A stretch of 64,000 nucleotides of DNA, from positions 18,568-82,567 of the forward strand of contig JAADIO010000035.1 in NCBI GenBank assembly GCA_013151235.1. The letters run 5' to 3'. Shown here one piece after another: positions 10,835-13,781 of this stretch (its first letter is position 1; each line of letters opens with the position of its first letter). A model generated the notes under the pieces. That model searched no databases and was not told where the DNA came from. It worked only from the letters and a program-made list of their open reading frames with translations. The DNA is from Deltaproteobacteria bacterium. GTDB taxonomy: Bacteria > CG2-30-53-67. A program made the translations under genes and the position numbers.

Positions 10835-11632
10835 TTAAAGCGCTTCCTTGCGGCGTTGACGTTCGCGCAGATCATCCTTGGTCCATACATAGGGAAGATC
10901 AATCACCGTTCCCGCAGGAAGTTTTTCGGCCGCATAGCGCAAACAGTCGAGCAAGATATTTTCGTGTGTAATGGAATCTCCCACATCGCCGAGGGTCAGG
11001 CCGAAGGGATGACGAAGATAGAGGGCCAGGGAGGGCTTCACCTGCAGGGTGATCTCCCGCACCAGGGAGATCGAGACCGTGCACAGGCCCATCCGGTCGA
11101 GAACTCTCTGAATCAGTCCCACGGACTGGCTACAGACCGGTCAGGAGGGCACCAGGATCACGAGATCGACTCCGTCATCGAGAAGCGCGCCGCCAACCAA
11201 AGGCACCCGTTCCGCGATCAGTTTTTCCGGAAAAGGAACATACCCCATGAAAGAGAAATGTCTCGGAGCCGCCTCACGGATCGCCCCTTCGATCCGCAGC
11301 TGTTTCAACAGTCCCAAGGGGAAAACGCAGTCCAGGTCTTTCAATGCGCGCTTCGTGTCGTAGCCGGGATGGGCTAAAGCGATCTCTTCCGGATCGATAT
11401 CGTTCGGGATAACCCGAAAGCTGTCATCTCCCAGCTTATTGCGGGTGGAAAACGGCCCCTGACGATTGCGCAAATAGGCTCCTGATGTGGTGACCAGTGC
11501 AACCCGGCATTGATCAACCGGTTTTCCAACGGGATGGTGATCGGTCGGCCGGCTGAAGTACATCCATTCAAAATCAGGCAGGATACGGCTTCGGATATAG
11601 TCTCTTTCAACCTCTGCGAAGTTCAAACTCAC
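10835..11632 (-). CDS. predicted selenoprotein, glycine/betaine/D-proline reductase selenoprotein B-like (in-frame TGA = Sec)
   Basis: Two frames in the same phase are separated only by a TGA at 11143-11141. Read through, the product is 265 residues: the segment before ends GVDLVILVPS and continues U-P-V-C-S-Q-S-VGLIQRVLDRMG, giving a UxxC redox motif at residues 164-167. This is the layout of the short GrdB/PrdB-like family, whose members occur with Sec or Cys at this site. Directly after the TGA the mRNA can fold: CCGGTC (11140-11135) pairs with GACCGG (11098-11093), and CAGTCC (11128-11123) with GGACTG (11119-11114) around a GTG loop 18 bases from the TGA, like a bacterial SECIS. Start is a GTG with AGGAG 5 bases upstream. 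Function: likely a thiol/selenol reductase of unknown substrate. No selABC genes are in the window. Confidence 0.82.
11093..11140 (-). promoter_or_regulatory. SECIS-like hairpin within the coding region
   Basis: Lower stem of 6 bp (11140-11135 with 11098-11093) and upper stem of 6 bp (11128-11123 with 11119-11114) with a GTG apical loop at 11122-11120 that begins with G. The loop starts 18 nucleotides after the UGA, within the distance known for bacterial SECIS elements that bind SelB. It sits inside the coding sequence, as in formate dehydrogenase genes. Confidence 0.65.
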
Positions 11633-11676: not shown

Positions 11677-11859
11677 CTTAGTGGCCCTATTCGTAAATAC
11701 GGTGGCCTGTCTGCGTGCGGCCCGCCCGCACAGGCAGGCCTCGTCTTCGTTGCGCTCCCTACACCGTACCACAGGGGGTACGCTTCAGTCGCGTGCCTTG
11801 ATGAGACCGTCCTGCGACCCTCTCGGTGCGTCACAGTATTTGCGAACAGGACCTCTTGG
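11677..11859 (+). repeat. MITE-like element, copy 1
   Basis: About 183 bp. It begins CTTAGTGGCCCTATTCG then TAAATACGGTGGCCTG and ends with the near-inverse CACAGTATTTGCGAACAGGACC, so it has imperfect terminal inverted repeats of roughly 22 bp (consensus end GGnCCTrTTCGyAAATACnGTG). Internally a GCCTGTCTGCGTGCGG / GCCCGCACAGGCAGGC pair can form a hairpin. A copy in inverse orientation lies at 17527-17730. Its right end supplies the last codons and stop of the nrtS-like gene. It encodes no recognisable transposase; short ORFs in it are by-products. Confidence 0.75.
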
Positions 11860-12136
11860 GATCATCAGATTGTTGTTCCCGGAGGGCTGTGATTTGTGAG
11901 TGCAATGAAACTCCAAAGGGCACGATGAAACAGAGGACCACTTGAATGAAACTTCTTTTTGTAAGGGCTTCTCCAAATAGAAGATCAGTGTGATTAATCA
12001 GCACGAGCATGATCCCCACGATCAAAGAAACACGCGTTGCCCGAAGAAATATTTTTATGGATGTTTCCCTTTGTGTTCTCAAAAATCGTTCTCTACCTCG
12101 GAAATTGTCCCCTATTCTTTTCTGTTCTTCAACCAA
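11831..12136 (-). CDS. nrtS: nitrate/nitrite transporter NrtS-like small membrane protein
   Basis: 101 residues with two hydrophobic segments: ATRVSLIVGIMLVLINHTDLL (about 33-53) and VVLCFIVPFGVSLHSQI (about 66-82). The IN-H-D-LLFG pattern between helices and the VPFGVS end resemble the small NrtS family described as nitrate/nitrite transporters. The frame opens with TTG at 12136, overlapping the end of the unknown gene upstream by 25 bases; no better start is visible. The final residues RSCSQIL and stop lie inside MITE-like copy 1, so the original C-terminus was probably altered by its insertion. The family call is by pattern only. Confidence 0.6.
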   Translation of the reverse strand: MVEEQKRIGDNFRGRERFLRTQRETSIKIFLRATRVSLIVGIMLVLINHTDLLFGEALTKRSFIQVVLCFIVPFGVSLHSQITALREQQSDDPKRSCSQIL

Positions 12137-12516
12137 TGGAACAGACCCTTGCTTCCCTGAACCGGAGCTATGGTAGGCGGCTTTTCCCTCGGGTCATCAA
12201 GCTTCATTTCCCACCATGCCTTCGGGCTTCTGGTGCCGCAGGAAGCACACTGATAGGGGTCGTAGATTTTGATCCAACTCGGCTGATCCGGTATATGTAC
12301 ATAGACCCAGCCCGCGCCCCGCTTGCGGTTTTTGACATCCTCAATTCTTGCCGCCAGAAAGGTTGAAGCCTCCCCTGCCTCGGCTACAAAGAGTGTCTCC
12401 ATCCCTTTCTCCGGGGAGTGGATATACCAGGGGCCTCGGGTTTGGATTCTCGTAACCAGTTCGTCTGCCCGTTCCCATGTGAGAAGCCCGGTTAGCGGTT
12501 TGGAGTGATTGGACAT
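12112..12516 (-). CDS. conserved-looking protein of unknown function with a CxxC motif
   Basis: 134 residues, soluble, no signal peptide. I do not recognise the family. It has a GPWYIHSPEKGMETLFVAE segment, a central KRGAGWVYVHIPDQPSWIKIYDPYQCASCG, and a basic C-terminus. The single CxxC (CASCG) could bind metal or be redox active. The ATG has AAGGAG 9 bases upstream. It lies between the CMD-like gene and the nrtS-like gene on the same strand, 38 bases after the former, and likely belongs to the same transcript, under TetR control. Confidence 0.65.
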   Translation of the reverse strand: MSNHSKPLTGLLTWERADELVTRIQTRGPWYIHSPEKGMETLFVAEAGEASTFLAARIEDVKNRKRGAGWVYVHIPDQPSWIKIYDPYQCASCGTRSPKAWWEMKLDDPREKPPTIAPVQGSKGLFHWLKNRKE

Positions 12517-12554: not shown

Positions 12555-13085
12555 TTAAAAATCGATGTCCACCTGCAAGGCATCCAGAAATCTATTAAAA
12601 GAGGTGAAGAGTTCCATGACACCAAGGGCCTCAATGATTTCCGCATCGCTGACGCCGGTCTTGCGAAGGGCATCAAATTCGTCCCCCGTGATCTTCAACG
12701 GTTCCCGGCTCGCCTTCCGTGCAAAGCGGATCAAGGCCTGTTCTTGGGCATTAAAATCAGCCTTGTCGATCTGTTCCGTGATGTTTTGGATCTCTTCCTC
12801 CGAAACGCCGATCGATTTCAGCGCACCCGTATGGGCCGCGACACAATAGGCACAGCTGTTGTCCTTGGAGACGAGAACGGCGATGGTCTGCTTGACCTTC
12901 TGGTTCAGATCTCCCTGCACCATCACCGCCTTGACCTTGTTCCAGTTGGCTTCCAAAAGGGGGGGATAGTGGGCGTAGGTCCTGAACAGATTGGGCACCA
13001 TACCAAACTCTGCTTCAACTTCCTTGAATATTTCCTGGACTTGACTGGAAAGGTTTTGCGCTTCCGGCGGCTGAATCCTAGACAT
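12555..13085 (-). CDS. carboxymuconolactone decarboxylase / AhpD-like protein
   Basis: 176 residues from ATG 13085, which has AGGAGG 8 bases upstream (a GTG at 13094 overlaps the ribosome site). The motif CAYCVAAHTGAL is the CxxC...H active site of AhpD-like alkylhydroperoxidases, and the helical pattern with LIRFARKASREP and GVSDAEIIEALGVMELFTSFNRF matches the CMD family subgroup often called peroxidase-related. Such proteins reduce peroxides through the cysteine pair. The promoter carries one of the two TetR-type operators found here, so the regulator at 13175-13762 probably represses it. Confidence 0.88.
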   Translation of the reverse strand: MSRIQPPEAQNLSSQVQEIFKEVEAEFGMVPNLFRTYAHYPPLLEANWNKVKAVMVQGDLNQKVKQTIAVLVSKDNSCAYCVAAHTGALKSIGVSEEEIQNITEQIDKADFNAQEQALIRFARKASREPLKITGDEFDALRKTGVSDAEIIEALGVMELFTSFNRFLDALQVDIDF

Positions 13086-13136
13086 GATGAACACCTCCTA
13101 TAATACAGGTTAACAAAATAACCGCCCAAATTATAA

Positions 13137-13174: not shown

Positions 13175-13762
13175 TTATTCCTTCAAACCAATCAATACCT
13201 CAAGGGATTTCAAACAGTTTTGGAACAATCTTTCATCCTTTTCAAGTCTAGCCATCATGATGCAGCCTTCCAGCGTTGAAACCACATGACGGGCTAGCAG
13301 GTGGGCGGAAAGATCGTTCCGTACTTCGCCTGAAACCTGTGCGTTTTTGATAACGTCCTGAAGTTTTTCTACCCATTCTTCAAAGATCCCTCTGATAAAG
13401 TTTGCGAAGAAAGGCTCCTTGTCACTCATTTCCAGGGCGGTATTTCCGAAGATACACCCTCCCACGAAACCATTGCTTTTATGCTTTTTGAATACACATT
13501 GAAAGAAACGGCGGAGTGATGCACCCGGTGTTGTACCGGAGAGGGAGCGGTTGAGAAACTCCAGGAATTCTTCCCTGGCCTTTTTCAGGATGGCAAGAGC
13601 CAGGGCATCTTTCCCTTCAAAATGAAAATAGAGACTCCCTTTTTTCAGCCCCGTGGCCGCAACCAGATCATTGATGCTGGTGGCTCCAAATCCCTTCTGA
13701 TGAAAAAGACGGGTCGCCTCGGAAAGTATTTTTTCCCGCGTCACCCCCCCTTTGGTTTGCAT
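13175..13762 (-). CDS. TetR family transcriptional regulator
   Basis: 195 residues from ATG 13762, with GGAGG 4-5 bases upstream; the longer frame to 13774 is less likely. The N-terminal helix-turn-helix is clear: TREKILSEATRLFHQKGFGA then TSINDLVAATGLKKGSLYFHF. The C-terminal ligand domain has a single cysteine (GGCIFGNTALEMS), a pattern of the AcuR/NemR-like branch that responds to reactive electrophiles or unsaturated compounds, but that is only suggestive. Identical operator types in its own promoter and in the CMD gene promoter argue for autorepression and control of the adjacent operon. Confidence 0.9.
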   Translation of the reverse strand: MQTKGGVTREKILSEATRLFHQKGFGATSINDLVAATGLKKGSLYFHFEGKDALALAILKKAREEFLEFLNRSLSGTTPGASLRRFFQCVFKKHKSNGFVGGCIFGNTALEMSDKEPFFANFIRGIFEEWVEKLQDVIKNAQVSGEVRNDLSAHLLARHVVSTLEGCIMMARLEKDERLFQNCLKSLEVLIGLKE

Positions 13763-13781
13763 CTCGCCTCCCACACCAAAA

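Follow-up and report, generated by a model that had tools for sequence, protein, structure and literature searches.

The gene at 10835-11632 on the minus strand of the window, i.e. of the whole stretch of 64,000 nucleotides analyzed, very probably encodes a genuine selenoprotein, in which the UGA at 11143-11141 would be read as selenocysteine (Sec) to give a PrdB-like protein of the GRDB family with a U-P-V-C redox motif. The initial annotation had described two same-phase frames parted by a single TGA and interpreted them as a selenoprotein gene with a SECIS-like fold. The first part, the observation of a single TGA-interrupted gene, is confirmed, with the addition of the omitted strand, and the interpretation is supported by what follows. 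From 11632 to 10835 the reading frame comprises 163 codons, the TGA (codon 164 counted from 11632), 101 further codons and a TAA at 10837-10835. The joined translation carries U-P-V-C as had been claimed, with the Cys codon at 11132-11134 also placed by the alignment of homologues. Depending on the start codon the product is 263-265 amino acids long (265 counted from 11632). TTG at 11626-11624 is the more likely start than GTG at 11632, because AGGAG at 11640-11636 sits 9 nt before the TTG, and in the alignment two homologues have their ATG at this place; the GTG is merely 3 nt from AGGAG. GC content by codon position is similar on the two sides of the TGA, 0.63/0.40/0.61 and 0.65/0.40/0.65. 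Read as one, the two frames recover a gene that is likely to be split in two by ordinary annotation.

It had also been proposed to look for selA, selB, selC and selD elsewhere in the source genome, a draft of 2.62 Mb in 73 contigs that is 99% complete, and all four are present: tRNA-Sec with 73.3 bits (cut-off 47), SelB with 422.6 bits (cut-off 242), SelA with 620.4 bits (cut-off 268) and SelD with 370.4 bits (cut-off 125). The SelD gene (contig C43:16238-17158 of the source genome, G000) has its own in-frame TGA in the motif GAG-U-ACK, which makes SelD the second predicted selenoprotein of this genome. Selenoprotein SelD is a well-known type.

A scan of genome contigs with the single sequence returned only three relatives, and the wider sample comes from 386 diverse genomes searched with a profile, 46 of which contain homologues. 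The nearest relative, with 82% identity, belongs to another genus of the same family (L031), and the other three closest, with 52-54% identity, come from metagenome-assembled genomes (MAGs) labelled Acidobacteria, Blastocatellia and uncultured bacterium. All four have TGA at the aligned codon. The Sec reading would have been refuted by the absence of selB or selC, which are both present, or by homologues that do not align Sec or Cys at this codon; among 59 homologue loci it is TGA in 52, Cys in three, Gly in two and Ser in two. It is also informative to compare the distribution of tRNA-Sec, which was above cut-off in 39 of the 40 genomes that carry a TGA homologue (all but one assembly in 820 contigs) and in 39 of 80 control genomes without a homologue (Fisher p about 1.2e-8), keeping in mind that some matches close to the cut-off could come from different tRNAs whose variable arm is likewise long. 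Six genomes contain non-TGA homologues only, and of these the two with Cys have tRNA-Sec while the four with Gly or Ser do not. In the latter (Ser in L086 and L087, Gly in L082 and L088) the redox residue has been lost, and the protein has probably taken on a different role. A separate case is Acetoanaerobium noterae (NZ_CP154629.1), where a PrdB gene with an in-frame TGA lies in a stretch without a listed gene; the gene table of this genome in our collection is nearly empty, therefore the missing entry may reflect the table and not the annotation.

The SECIS-like region directly behind the UGA was delimited to 11105-11140 (minus strand) by folding and by comparison of homologues. Its conserved upper part is the hairpin CAGUCC-GUG-GGACUG, a 6-bp stem (11128-11123 with 11119-11114) closed by the 3-nt loop GUG (11122-11120) with G in first position, 18 nt past the UGA, just as the initial annotation had placed it. 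Of the two 6-bp stems described there only the upper one stands, as the second is interrupted by a bulge into 4 + 2 pairs and is weakly conserved (pair 13-33 in 9 and pair 12-34 in 19 of 42 homologues). Bacterial SECIS elements have been delimited by a loop of 3-9 nt, a stem of 4-16 bp, a distance of 16-37 nt from the UGA, a G within the first two loop positions and a minimum free energy of at most -7.5 (PMC13188914); here the loop has 3 nt with G first, the stem 6 bp, the distance is 18 nt and the energy -13.1 kcal/mol over 47 nt. The G at the start of the loop adds no independent support, since that place is occupied by a Val or Gly codon, which begins with G regardless. The fold energy of the single sequence is unexceptional (z = -0.17 against dinucleotide shuffles), and against synonymous recoding the single sequence gives p = 0.29 for energy and p = 0.022 for pairs in register. 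What raises the hairpin above chance is the comparison between homologues, and not the fold of the single sequence. With the register fixed behind the TGA, the mean number of pairs formed, out of 9, is 7.0 in Sec homologues, where synonymous recoding by the codon usage of the respective gene predicts 5.2; in non-Sec homologues it is 4.3 where 4.5 are expected.

The clearest signal comes from the third base of a Gly codon (positions 25-27), which is free to vary synonymously and pairs with a base in a Ser, Thr or Ala codon. This third base is A (twice G) opposite Ser TCN, T opposite Thr ACN and C (once T) opposite Ala GCN, so that it pairs in all 32 non-redundant Sec homologues having that Gly, 29 times as a Watson-Crick and three times as a G-U pair. 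Shuffles gave a mean of 15.6 Watson-Crick pairs and none of 20000 matched the observed value, with the reservation that shuffling ignores relatedness; the pair types also reappear in separate branches of the maximum likelihood (ML) tree. This covariation at synonymous sites indicates that the hairpin is under selection as RNA, that is, as a recoding signal. When a draft MAG shows an isolated TGA within a frame, the cause is frequently a nonsense mutation or an error of sequencing or assembly, with a broken product, and a degraded transporter remnant does adjoin this gene. Such an origin is refuted here by the covariation and by the recurrence of TGA at this codon in independent genomes of other phyla, it further disagrees with the sel genes in the genome and the coding pattern that persists past the TGA, and we consider it almost certainly wrong.

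The initial annotation likened the product to the short GrdB/PrdB-like family, and this placement holds. Pfam GRDB (PF07355) matches with 26 bits against a gathering score of 22, over profile positions 221-345 of 347, and the best NCBIfam model is PrdB (TIGR04483), with 109.6 bits (E 1.5e-31), far under its equivalog cut-off of 300. The GrdB model TIGR01917 gives 35 bits against a cut-off of 602, over positions 222-381 of 431. What does not hold is any hint that the protein is D-proline or glycine reductase itself. Both of these enzymes rely on a partner subunit with a pyruvoyl group to activate the substrate. That partner's family, PF09338 (PrdA/GrdE), was not found in the 73 contigs of the source genome with a model shown to detect PrdA, although a draft of this kind may lack such a gene by incompleteness. 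The same model matched in seven of the 49 genomes tested and was without a match in 41 of the 48 others besides the source; in three of the seven the homologue copies group with GrdB-type sequences.

That the protein is nevertheless the Sec subunit PrdB or GrdB of such an enzyme, working with a pyruvoyl partner, is suggested by the PrdB model being the best match, by the GRDB match and by the identical position of UxxC. The PrdB of Enterococcus raffinosus (WP_081630564.1), encoded in a prdC-prdA-prdB-prdD cluster, does resemble the window protein in length and Sec position, with about 30% identity over 82% of the query, but it scores 399.7 on TIGR04483 and has U-G-T-C in place of U-P-V-C, and no prdA, prdC or prdD adjoins the window gene. 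Similarly, GrdB, GrdF and GrdH (selenoprotein B of glycine, sarcosine and betaine reductase, PF07355) share the C-terminal GRDB part with UxxC, while the profile's N-terminal two thirds have no counterpart in the window protein and a partner of the GrdE family was not found in its genome. The ML tree unites the window protein with its four close relatives in one clade (99/99) and puts true PrdB and GrdB-type sequences on a different branch. From these scores, the partner family not found and the tree we reject both D-proline and glycine reductase as its identity, and a role as subunit of either is very unlikely. Another comparable case is the "selenoprotein B family protein" of Roseomonas haemaphysalidis (WP_207415257.1), which has C-P-V-C at the Sec position and no prd genes alongside, but it carries Cys for Sec, is 28% identical and adjoins SelO instead of AhpD.

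Structure comparison yielded no closer assignment. A search of solved structures by sequence gave no match. An AlphaFold2 model from four sequences reached a mean pLDDT of 80 (the other four models about 41-43) with a generic alpha/beta fold, for which Foldseek returned no match at E <= 0.001. Its VIA-align list was topped by matches to unrelated families with Z 8-9, which we treat as common architecture. As a kind, PrdB-like selenoproteins are widespread and have been known since 2005, since UxxC families called "proline reductase PrdB" are listed among the commonest marine selenoprotein families in the reports on the Sargasso Sea (PMC1088965) and GOS (PMC2398784). As described there, these proteins are similar to the present one in UxxC, the PF07355 type, a predicted SECIS and their number outside amino-acid fermenters, a likeness of description and not of sequence; an AhpD-like neighbor is unmentioned in the parts of these reports considered here.

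Upstream of the window gene, on the same (minus) strand, is a gene run headed by a TetR-family regulator (13175-13774) with a promoter-like site at 13826-13798. The regulator is followed by a CxxC-containing AhpD-family peroxidase-related protein (12555-13094; TIGR01926 122.5 bits, cut-off 81.8; PF02627), a 134-aa protein with no Pfam or NCBIfam match (12112-12516) and an NrtS-like small membrane protein (11831-12136; NF038050 44.3 bits, cut-off 25). Directly downstream, on the same strand, the short segment 10295-10762 is similar to the beginning of a transporter for anions or citrate (CitMHS, with 19.5 bits, under cut-off) and is apparently a degraded gene. The related genus L031 retains the TetR, AhpD-like, 134-aa and NrtS-like genes, with insertions, and has the AhpD-like gene about 3 kb off; in the MAGs L029 and L030 the AhpD-like gene is immediately upstream. 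In L028 no more than its 5' part is left, between about 2.9 and 2.7 kb upstream of the TGA; this fragment runs in frame into TonB-receptor-like sequence, which could be a fusion, a recombination scar or an assembly join. Within the stretches examined no same-strand AhpD-like gene was found at homologue loci outside this five-member clade (L087 has one weak match on the opposite strand), where distant or further-off relatives could be missed by a profile built from the window's AhpD type and on contigs that end early. Across the 59 loci compared, no neighbor gene is common to the whole family.

On homology, motif and neighborhood, we tentatively suggest, at somewhat less than even confidence, a stand-alone selenol/thiol oxidoreductase distinct from D-proline and glycine reductase. 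SelB with Sec-tRNA-Sec very probably recognizes the hairpin directly behind the UGA and inserts selenocysteine, whose selenolate could then attack an oxidized or electrophilic substrate; the Cys of UxxC would resolve the Sec as a selenenylsulfide, and electrons might be returned by the CxxC protein of the upstream AhpD-like gene or by another thiol system. Reduction of such a substrate through a selenenylsulfide is the most likely chemistry for the UxxC protein because the pyruvoyl partner was not found. Less settled is the electron donor. There is an even chance that the selenoprotein is real while the AhpD-like gene is incidental and electrons come from a general thiol system such as thioredoxin, which would be in accordance with the other family members that have no such neighbor, with the lack of a neighbor common to the family and with the distance of about 3 kb in the related genus. 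This is opposed by the upstream same-strand place of the AhpD-like gene, kept between the small phylum of the source and Acidobacteriota MAGs at 53% identity, and by the change of the remaining neighbors while the AhpD-like gene stayed upstream. By this argument from neighborhood, the best candidate for electron partner within the five-member clade is the CxxC protein of the AhpD type. The wider proposal, a PrdB-like subfamily in which the Sec-containing UxxC protein is paired with an AhpD-type CxxC protein for a PrdA-independent redox reaction, is a possibility that we regard as rather unlikely.

From these results we can conclude that most sampled genomes with a "PrdB-like" selenoprotein are without the partner family required for D-proline reduction, and for this reason the family name "PrdB" misleads. 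The AhpD-type neighbor kept in the five-member clade is the one new and testable lead on function. If the pairing is true, UxxC and AhpD would constitute a reductase or peroxidase system that depends on selenium and has no relation to the Stickland fermentation of amino acids.
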